From: Limnochorda pilosa
GTDB taxonomy: Bacteria; Bacillota; Limnochordia; Limnochordales; Limnochordaceae
DNA: 64,000 nt
Assembly: GCF_001544015.1 (NCBI RefSeq)
Contig: NZ_AP014924.1
Span: forward strand, 2,232,001 to 2,296,000
Direction of reading: 5' to 3'
Part shown: positions 42,891 through 54,285 of the stretch, piece after piece
Layout of the letters: each line of letters begins with the position of its first letter
Numbering within the stretch: position 1 is the first letter of the stretch
Notes under the pieces: model-generated
What the model was told of the DNA's origin: nothing
Seen by the model: only the letters and a program-made list of their open reading frames with translations
Databases searched by the model: none
Program-made: the position numbers and the translations under genes

Positions 42891-43937
42891 TCACACGTCG
42901 ACCACCGCCTTCAGGATCCGGCGCTCTTTCATGGCCGAGATGGCCTGGGGGATCTCATCGAGGGAGACGGTGTGCCCCAGCAGCGGGTCGAGTCGACGGC
43001 CGAGGGACTGGATCAGGGCACCGGCTCGCTGGAAGTGCGACACGTCGAAGCCGAAGGTTCCGGTCAGGCCGACCTCGCGGTAGTGAACGTGGTAGGGGTC
43101 AATGGCGGTCCGAATGTCCCTGGCCATCCCGGCGAAGAGGTTCACGGTTCCCCCCGGCCGCACGACGGCGAGCAGCTCCGGCACGAGGTCCGCGGCCTCG
43201 ACAGACAGAATGGCCGCGTCGACCCCCGCTCCACCCGTCGCCTCCGCGACCGCCCGAGCCAGGGACGTCGCGCCGGCCGCCATCGGCAGGCCGCCCATGC
43301 TCGCCGCCAGCTCGAGCCGTTCCGGCACCAGGTCGGTCACGAGCACCGCCGCGCCGCCCATCTGCAGCGACGCCAGCACATGGAGCAGGCCCATGGGGCC
43401 CGCCCCCACCACGAGCAGGCGGCTCCCGGGCCCTGCGCCCACCTTCTCCAGAGAGTGGACCACGCACGCCATGGGTTCGGTGAGCACGTAGGCCCGAACG
43501 GATGCGAGCGCGTGGGGGTCGCCGTCGTTGGACCTGAGGCGGAAGATTCCCCGCTCCACGATCTCCCGGGGAAGCGCGACGTACTCGGCGAACGCCCCGT
43601 TGCTGGGAACCGACTTGCGGGAGCAGAGCTGCCCCAGGCCATGGCGACAGGCGGGGCAGGAGCCGCATCCCACGTACGGTGCTGCAGCCACCCGGTCGCC
43701 GACCCGCAGCCCGCTCTCCTCGGCCCCGGCGCCGACCGCCACCACTTCCCCCACGAACTCGTGGCCGAGGATGACCGGAGGCTGGAAGAGCGGATGACCC
43801 CGGAGGTAGGTCTTCACGTCCGTGCCGCAGACCGCCGCCCCCAGAGTCCGCACCAGCACCCCACCCGGCGGCGGTTGGGGTGTCGGAACCTCTTCCACGG
43901 CAAGCTGCAGGGGCCCGCGAAAGATGGCTGCTCTCAC
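42891..43937 (-). CDS. Zinc-dependent alcohol/polyol dehydrogenase (MDR family)
   Basis: A 348-residue medium-chain dehydrogenase. GTG at 43937 overlaps the aldolase stop (GTGA) and follows GAGG by seven bases. Catalytic zinc ligands appear in AAVCGTDVKT (C36 region) and LGHEFVGEV (GHE motif, about residues 58-66). The structural zinc cysteines are in YVGCGSCPACRHGLGQLCS (about 92-110). The NAD-binding motif is LLVVGAGPMGLL (about 170-181). It resembles sorbitol/threonine-type dehydrogenases. With the aldolase and NAD-kinase-like genes it may oxidise a polyol or hydroxy acid. Substrate not identifiable. Confidence 0.9.
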   Translation of the reverse strand: MRAAIFRGPLQLAVEEVPTPQPPPGGVLVRTLGAAVCGTDVKTYLRGHPLFQPPVILGHEFVGEVVAVGAGAEESGLRVGDRVAAAPYVGCGSCPACRHGLGQLCSRKSVPSNGAFAEYVALPREIVERGIFRLRSNDGDPHALASVRAYVLTEPMACVVHSLEKVGAGPGSRLLVVGAGPMGLLHVLASLQMGGAAVLVTDLVPERLELAASMGGLPMAAGATSLARAVAEATGGAGVDAAILSVEAADLVPELLAVVRPGGTVNLFAGMARDIRTAIDPYHVHYREVGLTGTFGFDVSHFQRAGALIQSLGRRLDPLLGHTVSLDEIPQAISAMKERRILKAVVDV

Positions 43938-44698
43938 TGGTCCACCTCTCCCTCCGATGCCCCGTGCACGGCCCTGCACAGTCGGGCGACGAATCCTTCC
44001 GGTTCCGGATGTCCCCAGGCGTTGCGGCCGAAGGCCACTCCGACCGCTCCTGCGCCCATGGCACGCGCGACCTGCTGCAGCAGGCTCGCCTCGTCGGGCA
44101 CCTTGGGGCCGCCGGCCAGAACAACGGGTCGCGGGCAACCCTCGATGAGCTCGCGCAGCTCGCCTGCGTCGTCCGGGTAAGCGGCCTTCACCACGTCGGC
44201 TCCCAACTCGGCCGCGATCCGGCATGCGTCCACCAGCGACGGCACGGAGGACGGAAGGCACTCTACAATAACCGGAAGCCCCAGGCCGTGCGCGCGATCG
44301 ATCAGGAGACCGAGTCGCTCCAACGCCGCCGGCTCTTCCGACGCGCGGCCCCAGCCGAAAGGTGCCATGGCCAGGAGCGCGTCGGCCCCCAGGCGGCACG
44401 CGCCTTCGGGGGTGATCACAGGACGAGGCACGGCATCACGGGGGTCGGCATGGCCCACAGCCATGTCCACCCGCACCACAAGAGGGGCGCCGCGCATATG
44501 ATCGGCTGCTGCCACCGCTCCCCCCGGCGAGAGGATGAGCGCGTCCGCGCCGGCAGCGAGCATGCGGCCGGCCAGCTCTGGAAGAGCGGCGGGGCCTCCA
44601 CGGGCACCCATGAAGAGCCCGTGGTCCAGGGCCACCATCACCGTCCGGCCGCGCGGGAAGAGGCGGTCCAGCCGCAGGCGAAGGCCGGCGTCGTTCAT
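43934..44698 (-). CDS. DhnA/LsrF-type class I aldolase
   Basis: A 254-residue TIM-barrel aldolase related to DhnA fructose-bisphosphate aldolase and LsrF. MVALDHGLFMGARGG opens the barrel (about residues 21-35). The Schiff-base lysine is in GADVVKAAYPDD (about residue 165). VLAGGPKVPDEASLLQQV and GAVGVAFGRNAWGHPEP form the phosphate-binding end. ATG at 44698 has GGGGAG ten bases upstream; a GTG one codon earlier is also possible. It follows the NAD-kinase-like gene by 19 bases and overlaps the dehydrogenase. An AI-2-like or deoxysugar phosphate substrate, phosphorylated by an unknown kinase, is possible. Confidence 0.87.
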   Translation of the reverse strand: MNDAGLRLRLDRLFPRGRTVMVALDHGLFMGARGGPAALPELAGRMLAAGADALILSPGGAVAAADHMRGAPLVVRVDMAVGHADPRDAVPRPVITPEGACRLGADALLAMAPFGWGRASEEPAALERLGLLIDRAHGLGLPVIVECLPSSVPSLVDACRIAAELGADVVKAAYPDDAGELRELIEGCPRPVVLAGGPKVPDEASLLQQVARAMGAGAVGVAFGRNAWGHPEPEGFVARLCRAVHGASEGEVDQ

Positions 44699-44717
44699 CA
44701 CGGAAACACTCCCCTTT

Positions 44718-45809
44718 TCAAGACATGCGGTCAAACCAGGCGTGCAGCGCTGCCTGCCGGAGGACCCGGATCCGAACCTCCCGGTCAGGGCCGAGCAGGA
44801 CGAGCGGGTTGCCATCCACACAGAGCGCAGCTTCCGGACGCATGCCCCGCACGACCACCCGATCCTCCTCACGAAGGCCCGCGAACCGGCTCACCAGGGG
44901 CTCCATGTCCTGTAGCCGCCAGAGGTCGACCTCGGCGGAAACGATGGGCCGTTCGGTCACCAGAACCGCTCCTGGGAGGCCCAAGGGCTCCGCCAGGCAG
45001 AGCCCCCCTACCAGGGCTCTTCCCCGGAAGGATCCGGCGATGGGAGCGACGATCACCTGGCCCACTTCCGTACCCCGAGCGACGACCCGGCGTCTCCCTC
45101 GCGCAGCGACCGGCGTCCGTCGGGCCCCGGCCGGTGCCTGCTGCCCCCGGCGCCCATCGGGGGACTCCACCACCACCTCCGCGGCGGCCGTGCCCACGGA
45201 ACGAGACGTGGCCGGCACGCTCCTGCCCGTGAGCTTGGCCGCCGCGTCCACGTCCCGGGCCTGACCGTGTACGGTAGCCAAGACGGTGGTACCCACGACG
45301 GCGTCGTTGAACCCTATCCCCAGGAGCCGGCCTTCGAGGAAGGCCTCCACACCGGCTACGCTGTGCACGCGTAGCATGGACGGATCCGAGGGGAGGACGG
45401 CGGGCAGGGAGGTCACCTCGGAAGCACGCAGAGAGACCATGGCACCGGCGTTGGTGGTTCCACATCCCACCCCGAGGATCGGCACCCGCAAGCCTTCCCG
45501 GTGCAAGGCCAAAGCGGCGTCGGCCAGGGTTCCGTCGCCCCCGAAGACCACCAGGACGTCCAGATCGTGCCGGCAAAGGGCGGAGACCGCGGCCATGGCG
45601 GCCGCCCGCCCGCCGCCGGGGGCGCCTTCGGGGAGCTCTACCACATGGAGGGTCGGGCGCAGCGACGAGGGCGCGCACTCCGCCCCCAGCGGACCGGGCG
45701 GCGCCGCCCAGAACCAGGCCCGCGCCCGCTGCAGGAAGCCTTCCACCGCGTCTCGCCATGAGGGGAAGCCCGCCCCGGCCGCGGGGTTCACCACCAGTCC
45801 GGCGCGCAT
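44718..45809 (-). CDS. ATP-NAD kinase-like protein (AcoX-like)
   Basis: A 363-residue member of the NAD/diacylglycerol kinase superfamily. The hallmark VVFGGDGTLADAA lies at about residues 90-102, with GVGCGTTNAG following, as in AcoX-type proteins of acetoin and polyol operons. The N-terminal AGLVVNPAAGAGF fits the same group. A basic segment around residues 222-245 looks like a low-complexity insert. ATG at 45809 overlaps the stop of the SorC-type gene by one base. The second substrate is unknown; it could phosphorylate NAD or a small polyol intermediate for the aldolase that follows. Confidence 0.82.
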   Translation of the reverse strand: MRAGLVVNPAAGAGFPSWRDAVEGFLQRARAWFWAAPPGPLGAECAPSSLRPTLHVVELPEGAPGGGRAAAMAAVSALCRHDLDVLVVFGGDGTLADAALALHREGLRVPILGVGCGTTNAGAMVSLRASEVTSLPAVLPSDPSMLRVHSVAGVEAFLEGRLLGIGFNDAVVGTTVLATVHGQARDVDAAAKLTGRSVPATSRSVGTAAAEVVVESPDGRRGQQAPAGARRTPVAARGRRRVVARGTEVGQVIVAPIAGSFRGRALVGGLCLAEPLGLPGAVLVTERPIVSAEVDLWRLQDMEPLVSRFAGLREEDRVVVRGMRPEAALCVDGNPLVLLGPDREVRIRVLRQAALHAWFDRMS

Positions 45810-46888
45810 CAGGCGTCCCCTCCGGGGGTAGACGGAGCCGGATCCATCGGTTCGCCATCGGGCTCTGCCAGGAGCGCCTCAGCGGTCCGCAGGTCGGTGA
45901 CGAGACCGTTCACGTACCCATGCACCAAGGCGGTGCGGATGGCGGCCACCTTCTCCGGACCGCCTGCGACGCCGATGACCAGGGGCAGTCCCCGGAGGAC
46001 GTCCAGCGGGATGCCCACGAAGCGCCGACCGGCTTCCAGACTGCACGGCCGGCCGTTGATGTCGAAGAAGTGGGTGCAGACGTCACCGGCGGCCTTCTGG
46101 CGCAGAAGCTCGAGGAGGGCCTCCTCCGTGAAGCCTCCCACCTCGAGCACGGGAGAGTGGTACACGGACGGGCCGATGCCGACCAGCGCCACGTCCAGGG
46201 CTCTCCAGAGCTCCGCAACCTGAACCGCCTGACGCTGCCTCAGGATCTCCACGGCCGCCTTCTCGGTGTCGGTGTACGCCGGGGCGTGCAGGTACATCGC
46301 GGCACCGCCGAAGGCCTGCGCGAAGCGGAAGGCCAGGTCGTTCACCTGGTAGCGGGGGTCGGCCTGGCCCACGCTGCCCAGGAGGGGTACCACCGTGATG
46401 GACCGGCGCACGTCCTGCCCCAAGCTGTTCACCGTCTCGTAGAGGGTGGTCCCCCACGAGAGCCCCACCAGTTGGCCGTCGCGGAGCGTCTCCTGCAGGT
46501 AGCGGGCCGCCGCCTGGCCGATGCGCCGGCGCAGGAGGCTTGCATCCCCGGCTGCAGGCGCCTCCGCCACCACGCAGCACTTGAGCCCGAAGCGGTGCGC
46601 CAGCTCCCGGGCCGCAGCCTGCGACGCTCCCGCATGCGGGTACCGGATGCGGACCTCGACGATGCCCGCCTCCCATGCCTCCTGCAGGAGCCGGGAGACT
46701 CGGGAGCGGGAGACCCCCAGACGGACGGCGATCTGTGCCTGGCTCTGGCGCTCCAGGTAGTAGAGCCGTGCGGCCTGGTAGAGGCGCTCCATGCGAGCCG
46801 CGGCCCGAGCGCCGGCGAGCGTGGTTCGTTCCTCGGCCGTGGGAACCCCTCCTCTCCCGTGTGTCCACCGGGGCGCTGGAAGGCTCAC
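45809..46888 (-). CDS. SorC/DeoR-family sugar-binding transcriptional regulator
   Basis: A 359-residue regulator. The helix-turn-helix is AARLYYLERQSQAQIAVRLGVSRSRVSRLL (about residues 38-67). The rest is a SorC effector domain with a sugar-phosphate isomerase-like fold (GQLVGLSWGTTLYETVNSL, VVPLLGSVGQ, VALVGIGPSV, FDINGRPC, GVAGGPEKVAAIRTAL). The GTG at 46888 lacks a ribosome site; an ATG 33 codons later (RMERLYQAARLYY) fits relatives well and may be the real start. It is the first gene of the NAD-kinase/aldolase/dehydrogenase/ABC series and probably controls it in response to a phosphorylated sugar. A direct repeat lies just upstream. Confidence 0.9.
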   Translation of the reverse strand: MSLPAPRWTHGRGGVPTAEERTTLAGARAAARMERLYQAARLYYLERQSQAQIAVRLGVSRSRVSRLLQEAWEAGIVEVRIRYPHAGASQAAARELAHRFGLKCCVVAEAPAAGDASLLRRRIGQAAARYLQETLRDGQLVGLSWGTTLYETVNSLGQDVRRSITVVPLLGSVGQADPRYQVNDLAFRFAQAFGGAAMYLHAPAYTDTEKAAVEILRQRQAVQVAELWRALDVALVGIGPSVYHSPVLEVGGFTEEALLELLRQKAAGDVCTHFFDINGRPCSLEAGRRFVGIPLDVLRGLPLVIGVAGGPEKVAAIRTALVHGYVNGLVTDLRTAEALLAEPDGEPMDPAPSTPGGDA

Positions 46889-47027: not shown

Positions 47028-47056
47028 TTGACAATCCTGCCCTCGCATGGTAACGT
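47028..47056 (+). promoter_or_regulatory. Promoter of the GntR-ARH/ABC locus
   Basis: A perfect -35 box TTGACA (47028-47033), a 17-base spacer and TAACGT (47051-47056, 3/6) place a start of transcription near 47063. The gap from the divergent SorC-type gene is otherwise empty. Confidence 0.65.
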
Positions 47057-47063
47057 CGCGCGC

Positions 47064-47086
47064 GAGAACATATCAGACAAGTTCTC
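47064..47086. promoter_or_regulatory. Candidate GntR operator overlapping the transcription start
   Basis: GAGAAC (47064-47069) and GTTCTC (47081-47086) are perfect 6-bp arms 11 bases apart. They sit just after the -10 box and before the ribosome site, a position suited to repression by the GntR-ARH protein itself. Confidence 0.6.
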
Positions 47087-47106: not shown

Positions 47107-48696
47107 ATGGAGTCCATGCGCAGGGAAGCCTTACCGACCGTGATCGCGGAAGAGGTCCAGCGCTTCATCGTTGACCGCGGCCTGCAGCCCGGGGACGCGT
47201 TGCCTTCCGAGCGGGAGCTGCTGACCCTCCTGGGCGTGGGACGCTCCTCCCTTCGGGAGGCCCTGACGGCCCTGGAGCTCATGGGCTGGCTGAGGAGCTC
47301 ACGCGGCCGGCGGCGCGTGGTCGGTACACCCCGGCACTTCGTGGCGAGCCTGAGCCATGAGCGGCTGGTGGAGCTGGTGAGGCTCGAGGCCGCACAGGCC
47401 TCCCAGGAGGGCAGGGACGTGGAGGGTCTCCGACTTGGTCTGGAGAGCCTGCGCCACGCACCCGACGAGGAGCTGGAGACCCTCCTGGCCAAGGTCGCCC
47501 ACGCCCCCCGCAGGCGGGGTTTCGCCTACGTGGAGCCCGACGACCTCCCCGCAATTCTGGCAGAGTCGCCGGGGGGTGAGGCGCCGGATCAGGCGCCGGA
47601 TGAGGCGCCAGTGCCTGCGAGGGGCGGCCTCGTCAACCGGCTGGCGGGGGCCTGGTACGGTCGGATCGCGGGGTGCATGCTCGGGCGGCCGGTGGAGTGC
47701 TGGACGTCCGACGCGATCGAGGCCTACCTGAAACGAGCCGAGGCGTGGCCGCTCGCGGACTACGTCCCGTACGTGCCCGAGGCTGCCAGCCCCGACTTCT
47801 CGATCCCGCCCGCGGTCCGCGGTGCGTGTCGGGGGCACCTGACCCGTGCCATCCGCGACGACGACCTGGATTTCACCGTGCTCAACCTCACGCTCCTGGA
47901 GCGACACGGCGCGCGCTTCACCACCGCGCGCGTCGCGGACCAGTGGCTCCACACGCTTCCCTACCGAAGGGTGTATACCGCCGAGGAGGCGACCTACCGA
48001 AACCTGGTGATGGGCGTGCCCGCAGAGGCTGCCGGGGCGTATCGCAACCCCTTCCGGGAGTGGGTGGGAGCCCGGATCCGAGCGGACACCTTCGGTTATG
48101 CAAACCCCGGCAAGCCTCGCGAGGCGGCCCGAATGGCCTTCAGGGACGCGGTGCTCTCGCACCGGAAGAACGGCGTCTACTCCGCCATGGCTGCTGCCGC
48201 CATGGTCTCCGAGGCCCTGGTGGCAAGCGACCTCCACCAGGTCCTGAGCGCCGGTCGTTCGGTGCTTCCCGCCCGGTCACGCCTCTTCGAGGCCGTGAGC
48301 ATGGTGCAGGGGCTGGTTGACCAGGGCGCGAGCTGGCAGGACACCCTGGCGGCCGTGGAGCAGCGCTACGGCGGCTATGCCCATGTCCACGCGATACCCA
48401 ACGACGCCATCGTGTGGCTCGCCCTGATCTACGGTGCGGGGGACTACAGCGCGTCCATCACCCTGGCGGCCGCGTGCGGCAAGGACACCGACTGCAACGC
48501 CGCCACGGTGGGCTCCATCGTGGGCGCGCTGGTGGGGTTCGCGGCGCTGCCCGGAAGATGGACGGAGCCGCTCAACGACACGCTGGAGGTTGCTCTGGCG
48601 GGCGTGGGGACCCTCCGGATCTCCGACCTGGTGGAGCGGACATGGCGCCTGGCCCGGGGCGCATCGGGCGAGACGCGGCGGGAGGAACCGGCATGA
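47107..48696 (+). CDS. GntR-type helix-turn-helix fused to ADP-ribosylglycohydrolase domain
   Basis: A 529-residue fusion. Residues 8-75 form a GntR winged helix (AEEVQRFIVDRGLQPGDALP, then SERELLTLLGVGRSSLREALTAL). Residues 80-170 are a helical linker ending in a short Asp/Pro/Ala repeat. Residues 175-520 are an ADP-ribosylglycohydrolase (ARH, DraG-like) domain: start NRLAGAWYGRIAGCMLGRPVE, metal-site segment IRDDDLDFT (D251-D255), and C-terminal motif GKDTDCN (D460, D462). Known: ARH enzymes use a two-magnesium centre to cleave ADP-ribosyl or related N/O-ribosyl bonds. Inferred: the ARH part senses, or also cleaves, the compound imported by the transporter that follows. ATG at 47107 has GGAGG upstream; an earlier ATG at 47047 overlaps the promoter and is rejected. 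Confidence 0.88.
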   Translation: MESMRREALPTVIAEEVQRFIVDRGLQPGDALPSERELLTLLGVGRSSLREALTALELMGWLRSSRGRRRVVGTPRHFVASLSHERLVELVRLEAAQASQEGRDVEGLRLGLESLRHAPDEELETLLAKVAHAPRRRGFAYVEPDDLPAILAESPGGEAPDQAPDEAPVPARGGLVNRLAGAWYGRIAGCMLGRPVECWTSDAIEAYLKRAEAWPLADYVPYVPEAASPDFSIPPAVRGACRGHLTRAIRDDDLDFTVLNLTLLERHGARFTTARVADQWLHTLPYRRVYTAEEATYRNLVMGVPAEAAGAYRNPFREWVGARIRADTFGYANPGKPREAARMAFRDAVLSHRKNGVYSAMAAAAMVSEALVASDLHQVLSAGRSVLPARSRLFEAVSMVQGLVDQGASWQDTLAAVEQRYGGYAHVHAIPNDAIVWLALIYGAGDYSASITLAAACGKDTDCNAATVGSIVGALVGFAALPGRWTEPLNDTLEVALAGVGTLRISDLVERTWRLARGASGETRREEPA

Positions 48697-48778
48697 CCTC
48701 GAGCCCGCACGGCTTTCCCCGTCGCCCCCGAAGGGACCAGGCGCACCAACGCAAGGACATGACGAGGAGGTGGATGAA

Positions 48779-50092
48779 GTGCGCACTCTGAGGACCCTGC
48801 TGTTGGCTGCCGCGGTGGTGGCGATGCTCGCCCCGGCCGCCCGCGCGGCCGAACGCGTGACGTGGTGGTATGAGAACGCCACACCGGAGCAAGAGCGCAT
48901 CCTGCGCGCCGACTTCGTCGACCGGTTCAACGCGTCCCAGTCCCAGTACGTCCTGGATCTGCGCTTCGACCCCAATCTCGACTCGAGCCTCCGTACGGCC
49001 CTGCTGGCCGGGAGCGGCCCCGACATCGTCTTCACCCACGGGGTCGCGTACGCCTTGCCCTACATCAAGAACGGCCAGCTCATGCCGCTGGACGACTACG
49101 CCAAGCGGTACGGCTGGTATGACCGGTTCCTGCCCGTCATGATCAGCCTGGGCTCGCATCAGGGTCATCTCTACGCACTGCCCAAGTCGTACGAGTCCAT
49201 GGTGCTCTTCTACAACAAGACCCTCTTCCAGAAGAACGGCTGGAAGGTGCCCTCCAACCGCGAGGAGCTCGAGGCGCTCGCTCGTACCATGCAGGCCAAG
49301 GGCATCGTTCCCTTCGCGCAGGGCAATGCCGGCTTCCGCTTCGCGAACGAGCACTACGTGGGCGTCTTCCTGAACCACTACGCTGGAGCGGAGAACATAC
49401 ACAAGGCTCTGACGGGCAAGGTTCCCTGGAACGCGCCCGTCTTCGTGGACGCGATCGCCTTGCTCAACGATTACTACCAGAAGGGCTGGCTGGGCAAGGA
49501 CTACTTCTCGCTCACCTACGAGGACTACATGACCCTCCTCTCCACCGGCCGGGCCGCCATGACCATGAACGGCACGTGGGCCTTCCAGTGGATGCCCGCC
49601 TTCTTCGGCCAGACCGGGCAGGAGTGGGACTGGGCACCGCTGCCGGCCCTCTCCGACCAGGCATCGTACCCGCTCTTCGACCTGGGCATCGGCGCCACGC
49701 TCTCCATCAACGCGGCGGCCAAGAACGCCGACGGCGCTGCGGCCGTGCTGGACAGGCTCAGCGGCGACAAGCAGGTCATCACCGACCTGAACCGGGACTG
49801 GCCGGGTGAGTGGAACCTACCGGTGACCACCCTCGACGCGAGCGACTTCGGGGACAAGGTCGACCCGCGCTACGCTCGGCACGCCGACGAAGTGGCCGAG
49901 GCGGTCGCCCGAGGCAACTACGGATACACCGTGTGGACCTTCTGGCCGCCCAAGACGGAGAGCTACATCGTGGAGGGGATCGAGCAGGTCTGGCTGGGCG
50001 AGGTGACGCCTCAGCAGTTCATGGACCGCGTGAACGAGCTGTTCCAGCAGGAGCTGGCGGAGGGATCCGTTCCGCCCACTCCGGCCCGATAG
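48779..50092 (+). CDS. Extracellular sugar-binding protein (SBP_bac_1) of the ARH locus
   Basis: A 437-residue binding protein. GTG at 48779 has GGAGG eight bases upstream and begins a clear signal peptide (RTLRT, hydrophobic LLLAAAVVAMLAPA, ARAAE). The mature start RVTWWYENATPEQERIL and later GSGPDIVFTHG, LYALPKSYESMVLFYNKTLFQ and MTMNGTWAFQW are typical of family 1 carbohydrate-binding proteins. It lies 82 bases after the GntR-ARH gene and is followed by a stem-loop and two permease genes. The aromatic-rich mature sequence fits a glycoside ligand. A ribosylated compound is possible because of the two ARH genes, but not shown. Confidence 0.93.
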   Translation: MRTLRTLLLAAAVVAMLAPAARAAERVTWWYENATPEQERILRADFVDRFNASQSQYVLDLRFDPNLDSSLRTALLAGSGPDIVFTHGVAYALPYIKNGQLMPLDDYAKRYGWYDRFLPVMISLGSHQGHLYALPKSYESMVLFYNKTLFQKNGWKVPSNREELEALARTMQAKGIVPFAQGNAGFRFANEHYVGVFLNHYAGAENIHKALTGKVPWNAPVFVDAIALLNDYYQKGWLGKDYFSLTYEDYMTLLSTGRAAMTMNGTWAFQWMPAFFGQTGQEWDWAPLPALSDQASYPLFDLGIGATLSINAAAKNADGAAAVLDRLSGDKQVITDLNRDWPGEWNLPVTTLDASDFGDKVDPRYARHADEVAEAVARGNYGYTVWTFWPPKTESYIVEGIEQVWLGEVTPQQFMDRVNELFQQELAEGSVPPTPAR

Positions 50093-50186: not shown

Positions 50187-51113
50187 GTGGGCGCGCGAGC
50201 AGCCGACATGCCGGCCCGAACCGCGCAGGCGGTCCGAAAGCCCCGGGATCGAGGCGAGATCGCAGGGTGGCTCTTCCTCACACCCGCGCTCCTGCTGAAC
50301 GTCTTCGTCATCCTGGTGCCCGCAACCCTGACGGCCGTGCTCGCCTTCACCGACTGGGACGGGGTGGGACCCCTGCGCTACACGGGCCTCGCCAACTTCC
50401 GGTCGCTGTCTGCCGATCCCGTCTTCTGGGGTGCCCTGGCGAACAACGCGAAGTGGATGCTCATCTTCCTGACGGTACCCATCGTGATGGGTCTGGTCGT
50501 CGCGAGCATGCTGCTGACGGTGCGGCGTGGGCGGAACCTCTTCCAAACGGTCTACTTCGTCCCCATGGTGGTTGCCACCGTGATCAGCGCCCGGGTGTGG
50601 CAGCAGATGGTCTTTCACCCCCTGAGCGGTGTCCTGGGCTGGCTCTCCCTCCACGGGGTGAACCCCTTCGGCGGCAACCCGCTGACGGATCCTTCGACCG
50701 CCCTCTATGCCGTGGCCTTCGTGGACAACTGGCACTGGTGGGGGTTCGTGACGGTGGTCTTCTTCGCCGCCCTGCGGCAGATCGACCCATCCCTGCTGGA
50801 GGCTGCGGGCATCGAGGGTGCGGGCTTCTGGCAGCGGCTGCGGCACGTGAGCCTGCCGCTCATCCGGCCCACCATCCTGTTCATGATGATCATGACGGTG
50901 ATCTGGTCCTTCCTGGTCTTCGACTTCATCTACGTGATCACCCAGGGCGGCCCGGGGTACTCCACCGAGGTGCTGGCCACCCTGACCTACAAGCGTGCGT
51001 TCCACACCTTCCAGGCGGGGCAGGCCTCCGCCGTCGCTCTGGTGATGAGCGCGCTGGGCGGCGTGGCGATCGCCGTCTATGTCTGGCTGCAGCGCAGGGG
51101 GTGGGAGGTGTGA
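50187..51113 (+). CDS. Carbohydrate ABC transporter permease, MalF type
   Basis: A 308-residue permease; GTG at 50187 has AGGAGG seven bases upstream. Six hydrophobic segments begin near residue 26 (IAGWLFLTPALLLNVFVILV). The ATPase-contact loop is LLEAAGIEGAGFWQRLRHVSL (about residues 203-223), and YVITQGGPGYSTEVL follows. It works with the overlapping MalG-type gene. No ATPase is encoded in the locus, so a shared one must energise uptake. Confidence 0.93.
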   Translation: MGARAADMPARTAQAVRKPRDRGEIAGWLFLTPALLLNVFVILVPATLTAVLAFTDWDGVGPLRYTGLANFRSLSADPVFWGALANNAKWMLIFLTVPIVMGLVVASMLLTVRRGRNLFQTVYFVPMVVATVISARVWQQMVFHPLSGVLGWLSLHGVNPFGGNPLTDPSTALYAVAFVDNWHWWGFVTVVFFAALRQIDPSLLEAAGIEGAGFWQRLRHVSLPLIRPTILFMMIMTVIWSFLVFDFIYVITQGGPGYSTEVLATLTYKRAFHTFQAGQASAVALVMSALGGVAIAVYVWLQRRGWEV

Positions 51114-51949
51114 CGACGCTCACGCGATCGTCGCGCCCGTCGTCGGGCCTCGTGTATGCGGTTCTGTCAGCACTGGCTCTCTTCTCGCTGGCTCCGCTGC
51201 TGCTCATGCTGCTCAACTCGCTTCGCTCCCGCATGGAGATCAGCATGGATCCTCTCGGCCTACCGAGGCAGTTCCTCTGGGGAAACTACCTCGCGGCCTG
51301 GCAGGAAGGCGCCCTGGGAGCCGCCCTCACCAACAGCCTCGTCGTGAGCGGCCTTACCGTGCTCCTTACCTGCGTGGTGGCGTCCATGGCCGCCTACTCC
51401 CTGGCCCGCCGCCGGATCCGGGCCTGGGCAGCCGTCAGCGTCTACCTGCTGGTGTGCACCACCATCCCGGTGCAGCTTTTCTTGATCCCGCTCTTCTTCA
51501 TCTTTCAGCACCTTCACCTGGTGAACAGCCGCCCGGCGCTGGCGCTGATCTACACGGCGCTCTACACGCCCTTTTCCATCTTCCTGCTCCGGGCCTACTT
51601 CCTCGCGATCCCGGTGGAGCTGGAGGAGGCTGCTCGGGTGGACGGCGCCAGCGACTGGCAGGTGTTCGCCCGGGTGCTGGTGCCCATGATCGCCCCTGGC
51701 CTCATGACCGTGGCGCTGGTGGTGGGGCTCTGGAGCTGGAACGAGTTCCTCCTGGCCGTGACCTTCCTGCAGGATGAGTCGCTCTACACGGCCACGGTGC
51801 GTTTCTACGGCTTCAGCGGGCGCTTCGTCACCGAGTGGGGGAAGATGATGGCCTCCGCGGTGATCCTGGTCGTACCGGTCATCGCCGCCTTCGCGGCACT
51901 GCAGCGCAAGTTCATCGAGGGCATGACGGCGGGGGGCATCAAGGGTTGA
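51110..51949 (+). CDS. Carbohydrate ABC transporter permease, MalG type
   Basis: A 279-residue permease. GTG at 51110 overlaps the MalF-type stop (GTGA). Six segments are visible, with the N-terminal GLVYAVLSALALFSLAPLLL, and the EAA loop LEEAARVDGASDWQVFARVL at about residues 180-199. Its stop in turn overlaps a TTG that opens the second ARH gene (TTGA), so transporter and enzyme are translationally coupled. Confidence 0.93.
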   Translation: MTTLTRSSRPSSGLVYAVLSALALFSLAPLLLMLLNSLRSRMEISMDPLGLPRQFLWGNYLAAWQEGALGAALTNSLVVSGLTVLLTCVVASMAAYSLARRRIRAWAAVSVYLLVCTTIPVQLFLIPLFFIFQHLHLVNSRPALALIYTALYTPFSIFLLRAYFLAIPVELEEAARVDGASDWQVFARVLVPMIAPGLMTVALVVGLWSWNEFLLAVTFLQDESLYTATVRFYGFSGRFVTEWGKMMASAVILVVPVIAAFAALQRKFIEGMTAGGIKG

Positions 51950-54285
51950 ACGGGAGCGGTCAGGGCGGCCAGACTCTGCGGGACGGGGCCGTAGCGGAGC
52001 AGATCCCGGACGTGGAACGGCGGATCTACGGAGGATGGCTCGGAAAGGCCGTGGGCGTCGCCTACGGCTCCCCGGTGGAGGGCTGGACGTACGAGCAGAT
52101 CCAGGCGGCGCACGGTGACCTGGTGGAGCAGCGGGACCGCTTCTACCTCGTGCCCATGGACCGCCTCTTCGGCGCGGACGACGACACGAGCCATCCGGTC
52201 CTGATGCTGCAGGCCGTGGCCGAGACCCTGCGCGGGAACCCGGCCGCCAGCATGCCCGGCCCCCGCGAGTTGGGGCAGTGGTGGCTCAACCTCATTCCCG
52301 AGGACCACGGCGTCATCTGGCGCGGAGGCTACGCCGTGTCGACCGAGCACACCGCGTTCCTCAACCTGCTGGCGGGGGTGGAGGCGCCGCACTCCGGCTC
52401 TGCGGCACTGAACGGCCCGGTGGTGAGCCAGCAGATAGGAGGCCAGATCTTCAGCGACGTGTGGGGCCTGCTGGCGCCAGGTCGGCCGGAGCTGGCCGCC
52501 GCCTGGGCCGATGCGGCGGCCAGCGTCTCCCACGACCTGGACGGGCGGGTGGGTGCCCGGTTCTTGGCGGCCATGGTGAGTCTTGCCTTCCGGTCGTCCA
52601 CGGTGGAGGACGTGGTTCGCCAGGCCCTGGAGCTGCTTCCCGCCGGAGCGCGCTACACGCAGGTGGTGCACGACGTCCACCGCTTCTGGCGTGAGCACCC
52701 CGACGACTGGCACCAGGCCCGAGCGTACATCGCGGCCACCCACGGGTACGACCGCTACCCCGGCATCTGCCACATCATCCCGAACGCCGCAGTCGTAGCC
52801 ATGGCTTTGCTCTACGGAAGAGGAGACTTCGACCGCACGCTGCGCGTGGCGAATGCTGCCGGCTGGGACACAGACTGTAACGTGGGCAACGCGGCTGCCG
52901 TGGTGGGCGTGCTGGTGGGACCCGAGGGGATCCCAAGGCCGTGGCGGGAGCCGCTTCAGGACCGCGTGGTGGGCTCCGGCGTGCTGGGGGCCCGGAACCT
53001 GTGGTCCATCGCCGCCCTGGCCCGGCTGACGGCCGCAGCGGGAAAGCGGCTGGAGGATCCCACGGAGCCGCCGACGCCGGATCTGATCGAGGCGGCCGCG
53101 CATCGGGCCTCCTTCGACTGGCCCGGCTCCACAGAAAGCATGCGGGGCGAGCGCTCGTCCGAACAGGCGGCACAGACCGTGAGCCAGACGGACGAGCGGG
53201 CGGCCGCCGGAGCCGGCTCACTGAAGGTCGTGGTGAAAGGCCTGAGCCTCCACCGCCCTGCCCGGGTGGTCCTCGACCTGCTTCCGACACCGTCGGACCT
53301 TACCCACACGGCGTACGATCCGGGGTTCTCCCCTTCCCTGCTGCCCGGCCAGCGGGTGGCCGCGCACATGTGGATCCCGGGTGACGGAGGCGGGCTCCGG
53401 GGAAGTGCACCGGAAGGGGAGCGGGGCCCGGCTCCGGTCTCAGGCCTGGTGGCGGGCTTCTTCGTCGACGTGCTCGAAGCCGCCGAGAGTGGATCCCGCC
53501 GCCGGCGGATTCATGCGGAGGCCTTCACACCCCTGGAACCTGAGCGCTGGGCTCGCGTGGCGTGGCAGGTGCCCGCGCTGGACGGGTTTGTCGAGCGCCT
53601 GGGAATCGAGGTGCGCTGCACCCGACCCGCCCAGACCTACGACGGATCGCTCTTCCTCGACGAGCTGACCTGGGGCGGGCCCGCCCGCTTCGGCCTCCGC
53701 TTCCGGGGATGGCCGGCCGCGTTCGGGGCGGCGGCGGGCTGGACGTACAGCAAGGGGTCCTGGCGGGTGGAGGACGGGGCGTACGTGGGGAGCTGCTCGG
53801 ACCACGGCGAGAGCTTCACGGGTTCCCCCGACTGGACTGACGCCAGCGTGGAGGCCGAGATCGCACCGGAACACGGAGGGTGGCACCTGGTCCTCGTAAG
53901 GGCGCAGGGCGCCCGGCGCTGGTATGCGGCAGGCCTGGCCCCCGACGGCCAGCTGGTGATCGTGAGGCAGCGAGACGGCCTCCTCGACCGGCTGGCCGCT
54001 GCCCCCTTCCCGTGGGAACCCGGTGCGTGGTACCGGGTGACGGTGGCGGCCCGGGGCGCGGAGATCGTGGCGGAGGCCGCGAGGGCGGCGGTTGGGAGGC
54101 CGGAGAGGGACACGGAAGGGCATGAAGACGCCGGGCCCCGTTCCGTTCGCCTTCGCTGGCGCGAGTCGTCCCCCGACATCTGGAACCGCGGATGCGTGGG
54201 CCTGGCGGTCCGTGAAGGCAGCCGTATGGCATGCCGGCGGATGCGCGTGGAGGGAGAGACTCGCCGGCGGTTCTGGCGGGCCTAG
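51946..54285 (+). CDS. ADP-ribosylglycohydrolase with C-terminal beta-sandwich domains
   Basis: A 779-residue protein. TTG at 51946 overlaps the permease stop and follows GGGGGG by nine bases. Residues 22-390 are an ARH domain: RRIYGGWLGKAVGVAYGSPVEG at the N-terminus, metal-site GADDDTSHP (D78-T81), HIIPNAAVVAMALLYGRGDFD, and AAGWDTDCNVGN (D308, D310). Both metal motifs are intact. Residues about 430-779 look like two beta-sandwich (jelly-roll or laminin-G-like) domains, suggesting glycan or ligand binding. There is no signal peptide, so it acts in the cytoplasm on what the transporter imports. The stop codon lies in sequence belonging to a DUF433 gene fragment, so the extreme C-terminus may have been changed by recombination. 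Confidence 0.88.
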   Translation: MNGSGQGGQTLRDGAVAEQIPDVERRIYGGWLGKAVGVAYGSPVEGWTYEQIQAAHGDLVEQRDRFYLVPMDRLFGADDDTSHPVLMLQAVAETLRGNPAASMPGPRELGQWWLNLIPEDHGVIWRGGYAVSTEHTAFLNLLAGVEAPHSGSAALNGPVVSQQIGGQIFSDVWGLLAPGRPELAAAWADAAASVSHDLDGRVGARFLAAMVSLAFRSSTVEDVVRQALELLPAGARYTQVVHDVHRFWREHPDDWHQARAYIAATHGYDRYPGICHIIPNAAVVAMALLYGRGDFDRTLRVANAAGWDTDCNVGNAAAVVGVLVGPEGIPRPWREPLQDRVVGSGVLGARNLWSIAALARLTAAAGKRLEDPTEPPTPDLIEAAAHRASFDWPGSTESMRGERSSEQAAQTVSQTDERAAAGAGSLKVVVKGLSLHRPARVVLDLLPTPSDLTHTAYDPGFSPSLLPGQRVAAHMWIPGDGGGLRGSAPEGERGPAPVSGLVAGFFVDVLEAAESGSRRRRIHAEAFTPLEPERWARVAWQVPALDGFVERLGIEVRCTRPAQTYDGSLFLDELTWGGPARFGLRFRGWPAAFGAAAGWTYSKGSWRVEDGAYVGSCSDHGESFTGSPDWTDASVEAEIAPEHGGWHLVLVRAQGARRWYAAGLAPDGQLVIVRQRDGLLDRLAAAPFPWEPGAWYRVTVAARGAEIVAEAARAAVGRPERDTEGHEDAGPRSVRLRWRESSPDIWNRGCVGLAVREGSRMACRRMRVEGETRRRFWRA

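Follow-up and report, generated by a model that had tools for sequence, protein, structure and literature searches.

What does a bacterium gain by joining a glycohydrolase of the ARH fold to a GntR-type DNA-binding domain, and is the enzyme part of such a protein still an enzyme? The question is raised by a gene of Limnochorda pilosa that lies in the window, the 64,000-nucleotide stretch of DNA analysed here, which belongs to a genome assembled as a single contig of 3.82 Mb.

The fusion gene and its domains

The gene is one uninterrupted open reading frame of 529 aa and is composed as follows.

47107-48696, + strand: GntR-ARH fusion gene, a single open reading frame with Pfam matches to GntR and ADP_ribosyl_GH and with an AlphaFold2 (AF2) model
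47143-47313, + strand: GntR winged helix-turn-helix (wHTH), aa 13-69 (PF00392, 48.3 bits, cut-off 27)
47332-47601, + strand: linker or N-terminal extension, aa 76-165; homologues align from about aa 83-90
47647-48555, + strand: ARH domain, aa 181-483 (PF03747, ADP_ribosyl_GH, 160.7 bits, cut-off 26.2)

The frame, its coordinates and its motifs DDDLDF and DTDC are as given in a preliminary description of this DNA, and Pfam places both domains in the single 529-aa frame. At E<=1 these were the only two Pfam matches, with none to Nudix, and among the NCBIfam regulator models the HTH alone was matched, far below cut-off. By its PF00392 winged helix the protein has the DNA-binding domain of the GntR superfamily, and by PF03747 and its fold it belongs to the ARH superfamily; none of the effector domains of the described GntR subfamilies (FadR/FCD, HutC/UTRA, MocR, YtrA, AraR, PlmA) was found in it. 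The winged helix carries a FadR-type recognition helix with R36, R46 and R50. The linker region, in which E143 and P144 are near-invariant, is also found in stand-alone members of the ARH subfamily to which the fusion belongs. In the AlphaFold2 model (30 sequences; mean pLDDT 90.8, pTM 0.86), the N-terminal part superimposes on the GntR regulator 3bwg (Z 12.7, rmsd 0.9 A, 65 residues; VIA-align) and the ARH domain on ARH3 6g1q (Z 33.0, rmsd 2.8 A, 305 residues; VIA-align), and the C-terminal part as a whole matches ARH3, MJ1187 and DraG (Z 33 to 30, rmsd 2.7-3.0 A, 287-305 residues). As modelled, the ARH fold and the GntR winged helix are both complete.

GntR-ARH proteins are present in four species: L. 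pilosa, G001, G003, whose genome is likewise a single contig, and the source of a MAG contig, CALAIW010000003 (L039). Pfam finds both domains in all four. Overall identity to the window protein is 71% for G001, 46% for G003 and 41% for L039. In the same order, it is 77/49/48% for the winged helix, 72/49/45% for the ARH domain and 59/29/26% for the linker. The winged helix and the ARH domain are thus equally conserved and the linker less so, which means that selection acts on both domains. All four proteins have R46 and R50 in their recognition helix, and two of them R36 as well. A maximum-likelihood tree of 78 rows groups the G001 and G003 proteins with that of the window in a supported clade (100/95); the position of the L039 protein relative to this clade was not resolved. 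Of 42 plasmid records, the 15 best contained no match to the HTH part.

GntR-ARH is a rare combination and mostly restricted to one lineage. Among 398 sampled genomes of the phylum, 31 were matched by the family profile at E<=1e-60, and GntR-ARH itself occurs in two, the window genome and G003. Such rarity could speak for an artefact of assembly or gene prediction. However, the fusion occupies one frame, followed by the same downstream genes, in two single-contig genomes and two independent assemblies. Being conserved in this way, it is not an assembly accident, and the chance of an artefact is practically negligible.

The metal site of the ARH domain

The metal-site positions of the fusion were assigned by sequence alignment, with the following result.

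47695-47697, + strand: E197, at the position of E41, the gating glutamate of ARH3; the same residue in every fusion and in each of 92 stand-alone homologues
47857-47865, + strand: putative metal-ligand triad D251-D252-D253, at the positions of T76-D77-D78 of ARH3, from alignment with canonical TDDT members
48484-48495, + strand: DTDC, aa 460-463, with D460, D462 and C463 aligned to D314, D316 and T317 of ARH3

In human ARH3, one set of metal-holding residues consists of T76, D77, D78 and D316, and the other of D314, D316 and T317 (PMC8141533). The preliminary description had suggested that the effector domain of the fusion kept part of a catalytic centre, and it had regarded the DDDT of the second ARH protein in the locus as more classical than DDDLDF (aa 251-256, 47857-47874). 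Neither view is supported by the alignment with canonical TDDT members, in which every ligand position of ARH3 is filled. The six binuclear metal-ligand positions of the ARH superfamily are occupied by D251, D252, D253, D460, D462 and C463, and that of E41 by E197, as in the stand-alone enzymes. Thr76 of ARH3 is replaced by Asp and Thr317 by Cys; both substitutions are common, being found in most of the subfamily, and the DDD and DTDC motifs are common to its stand-alone members. DDDLDF and DDDT alike have Asp in place of the first Thr, and the difference between Leu and Thr lies after the ligands, at a position where L, I or M is found in most of the family. The possibility that the metal site has decayed was rejected, since DDDLDF is the norm of the subfamily.

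Conservation of at least 95% among the 92 stand-alone homologues is seen in 63 columns, and the four GntR fusions deviate at 8 of them (aa 194, 285, 320, 365, 427, 455, 467 and 509), always conservatively (K/R, P/A, I/V, A/G, V/I, V/A/T, T/S and A/V). No metal-ligand, glutamate, histidine or asparagine column is lost. The subfamily as a whole has its own conserved set, N314, R317, E318, H428 and N432, in place of many canonical ARH columns. The C-terminal domain resembles ARH3, DraG and ARH1 in its fold and its binuclear metal-site positions, and the fusion differs from them in the first ligand (Thr to Asp), the last (Thr to Cys), this conserved set and the HTH. Judging from these residues, the ARH domain of the fusion is probably still catalytic.

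Candidate operator, transport cassette and related fusions

The surroundings of the gene contain a possible control region and a sugar transporter.

45809-46888, - strand: divergent SorC/DeoR-type regulator (family models), heading an operon
47028-47056, + strand: promoter-like TTGACA - 17 nt - TAACGT; the -35 box is kept in G001 (DNA alignment), the -10 is weak
47064-47086, + strand: candidate operator, palindrome GAGAACATATCAGACAAGTTCTC, with a 13-nt core ATATCAGACAAGT that is conserved upstream of the G001 orthologue
48770-50092, + strand: CUT1 solute-binding protein (SBP; SBP_bac_1, 102.7 bits)
50187-51113, + strand: ABC sugar permease 1 (PF00528)
51110-51949, + strand: ABC sugar permease 2 (PF00528)
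51919-54285, + strand: second ARH protein, 788 aa (PF03747, 167.9 bits)

The palindrome is located 3′ of the TTGACA box and the weak -10-like box and 5′ of the start codon of the fusion; a consensus promoter scan reported none in this region. By itself the palindrome was rejected as evidence: its 6-bp arms alone are expected 0.86 times by chance in the intergenic stretch, which is not significant, and therefore only its conservation counts. In G001 the core is unchanged (13/13) along with the TTGACA box, and the flanking DNA has diverged. Matches to the core at similar distances are found in G003 (10/13, shuffle p 0.01) and L039 (10/13, p 0.03), and the window genome holds no second copy within three mismatches. 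The FadR-type operator consensus is TKGT-N3-ACMA (PMC4494728), and the other strand of the palindrome, TTGTCTGATAT, partly fits it. Positions 47064-47086 could plausibly serve as an operator; their sequence is conserved in the sister species, and more weakly in the two others. Given the conserved core in G001, the weaker matches in G003 and L039, the uniqueness in the genome and the partial FadR-type fit, autoregulation by the fusion appears likely.

Alternatively, the protein could be an ordinary enzyme whose HTH is decorative or merely oligomerising, another regulator being in control, for example the divergent SorC/DeoR protein, which shares the intergenic region. Many close homologues indeed function without an HTH. 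However, we consider this improbable: the winged helix is as conserved as the enzyme domain, R46 and R50 are kept in all four proteins, the palindrome upstream is conserved, and three unrelated HTH types were gained at the same position, as described below.

The divergent operon (42891-46888, - strand) encodes the SorC/DeoR-type regulator, a DAGK/NAD-kinase-like protein, a DeoC/LacD-type aldolase and a Zn-dehydrogenase, and is possibly the catabolic half of the pathway served by the operon of the fusion. In each of the four species with GntR-ARH, the genes directly downstream are orthologues of the window SBP, permease 1 and permease 2, the SBP orthologues of the other three scoring 345-790 bits to that of the window. 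The second ARH protein has the motifs GADDDTSHP and GWDTDCN, and its ARH domain is followed by a C-terminal part of about 410-440 aa (53041-54285, + strand) that has no match in Pfam and reaches pLDDT 33 in an AF2 model made without alignment. A second ARH is present in the cassettes of the window, G001 and G363. The DNA fetched around the G003 and L039 fusions showed none, and in those two species the fused domain would have to carry out whatever ARH catalysis takes place locally. A reading of the locus as a defence system was rejected, PADLOC giving no match.

ARH domains are fused to other DNA-binding domains as well. An XRE-type HTH precedes an ARH domain in three species, G363 (548 aa), G072 and G004 (L168:12408-14054, L200:4234-5886 and L199:9811-11511, all on the - strand), this ARH domain being from another subfamily than that of the window. 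Two of the three species have CUT1 transport genes downstream of this fusion gene; in the third, it is divergently oriented from a weakly SBP-like gene. A LacI-type HTH is joined to an ARH domain of the window's subfamily in G045 (L120:1141-2760, - strand). This case counts less, since it comes from a single metagenome bin in which the neighbours (permease and ARH open reading frames) are fragmentary. All HTH and ARH matches in these proteins are above the Pfam cut-offs, and their metal-ligand positions are filled too (N/D-D-D and D-D-C). The tree shows the fusions dispersed between stand-alone enzymes. The involvement of three unrelated DNA-binding domains indicates at least three independent joinings.

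Comparison of related cassettes provides the strongest argument for a regulatory role of HTH-ARH proteins. In the cassette of G363, an XRE-ARH gene comes first, then the same transporter (its SBP scoring 565 bits to that of the window), then a stand-alone ARH. G043 has this transporter as well, with a full-length LacI regulator as the first gene of the operon and a stand-alone ARH as the last. Thus, one and the same transporter cassette can have GntR-ARH, XRE-ARH, or an ordinary regulator together with a separate ARH. This exchange of the DNA-binding part at one cassette suggests that the HTH-ARH proteins are local regulators, and that their ARH part recognises something from the import pathway.

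What is recognised may also be judged from the neighbourhood. Genes near relatives encode kinases of the PfkB and FGGY families, a DeoC/LacD aldolase, a GH4 enzyme and a GH78 rhamnosidase. These catabolic and sugar-import neighbours suggest glycosides or sugars rather than ADP-ribosylated protein. A regulator linked to ADP-ribose, either sensing it or stripping DNA or a DNA-bound protein of ADP-ribosyl groups, would be in line with the best solved ARH-fold relatives, which act on ADP-ribosyl substrates. Nevertheless, it seems very improbable beside CUT1 transporters, an aldolase, kinases and glycosidases, and in a subfamily that has its own conserved set instead of many canonical ARH columns. 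ADP-ribose is a possible effector for which these neighbourhoods do not speak, and an imported glycoside or its product is the more likely ligand.

An ARH enzyme as a proposed sensor: mechanism and precedents

Taking these observations together, we give somewhat more than an even chance to the following explanation: the fusion is an autoregulatory one-component transcription factor of its own glycoside-import operon, its sensor being a complete ARH-fold glycohydrolase of the trigger-enzyme type. The operon regulated would comprise GntR-ARH, the SBP, the two permeases and the second ARH. We infer that the GntR winged helix binds the palindrome just 3′ of its own promoter and thereby represses the operon, with a dimer, presumably formed through the linker or the ARH domains, sitting on the operator. 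Once the transporter imports the glycoside, the ARH domain would bind it or its product at the two-metal site. The winged helices may then move, releasing the operator and turning transcription on. Theoretically, the ARH domain would also hydrolyse the ligand, as the intact metal site suggests, and in this case the signal would reset itself.

Several known systems show parallelisms with this proposal. In E. coli, GgaR (YegW) is a GntR-type single-target repressor of yegTUV, which encodes a transporter, the ARH protein YegU and a sugar kinase, and its reported effector is ADP-glucose (PMC10819704). As in the operon of the fusion, a GntR-type regulator is combined with a transporter and an ARH protein, whereas regulator and ARH are separate proteins in E. 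coli. NrtR and BtAraR consist of a wHTH and a Nudix-fold effector domain with an impaired signature, their ligands being ADP-ribose or L-arabinose and their genes those of sugars or cofactors (PMC4666351). BzdR has an N-terminal HTH and, as effector, a shikimate kinase domain whose enzymatic activity is lost (PMC3602430). Like the fusion, these regulators join an HTH to an enzyme domain; unlike it, they use Nudix or another enzyme family in place of ARH, and show an impaired signature or lost activity where the fusion has a complete set of ligands. The MocR/PdxR and AraR subfamilies of GntR also combine the GntR winged helix with a domain of foreign origin, in their case an aminotransferase or a LacI-type sugar-binding domain. 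Trigger enzymes such as PutA, BirA and NadR unite an active enzyme and a DNA-binding regulator in one chain. They are unrelated enzymes, and their dual activity is proven, whereas that of the fusion is proposed.

Since the best studied enzyme-derived regulators are inactive or have an impaired signature, the conserved residues of the ARH domain could serve metal-assisted binding only. The fusion would then be a pure sensor, binding its ligand through the metal site without hydrolysis, like NrtR, AraR (Nudix) and BzdR, and catalysis in the cassettes of the window, G001 and G363 could be left to the second ARH. We regard this as rather unlikely. First, the impaired or lost sites of the precedents contrast with the four GntR fusions, in which no catalytic column is lost. 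Second, the XRE-ARH and LacI-ARH proteins keep their metal-ligand positions as well. Third, a second ARH was not detected in the DNA fetched around the G003 and L039 fusions.

The preliminary description had further proposed that an ARH domain as the effector of a GntR regulator would be a new type. The outcome that it named as refuting this, placement of the fusion in a known regulator family, was looked for and did not turn up, and the proposal gains in strength from the independent XRE-ARH and LacI-ARH fusions. Neither Pfam nor NCBIfam holds a curated family model spanning HTH and ARH, and a full-text search of the open-access literature found no description of HTH-ARH regulators. These data point to HTH-ARH as an undescribed type of bacterial regulator, in which an enzyme domain senses, and perhaps consumes, the ligand. 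Enzyme-fold one-component regulators as such are already known, usually with lost activity in the enzyme-derived effector domain; the ARH fold was not found reported among them, and its catalytic site is apparently complete here. A recurrent, apparently intact ARH enzyme-regulator would, if confirmed, represent a new class of one-component regulators in which sensing and removal of the substrate are compactly coupled, and it would open a way to learn what the large non-DraG ARH subfamilies in sugar-import operons act on. In its broader form, to which we assign a little less than an even chance, the proposal is that ARH glycohydrolases were repeatedly (GntR, XRE, LacI) turned into catalytically active one-component transcription factors, which detect an imported glycoside and also break it down; this would imply a carbohydrate-catabolic role of ARH proteins outside ADP-ribosylation.

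A few further observations concern the company of ARH genes. A GH78 alpha-L-rhamnosidase (L039:11336-13557, + strand) lies directly 3′ of the transporter cassette of the L039 fusion and gives a clue to the glycoside that this species imports. Elsewhere in the genome of the window (L122:4209-7344, - strand), there is a tandem of three different ARH paralogues together with CUT1 permeases and a LacI regulator. In Actinomycetota, similar multi-ARH clusters adjoin stand-alone members of the subfamily.
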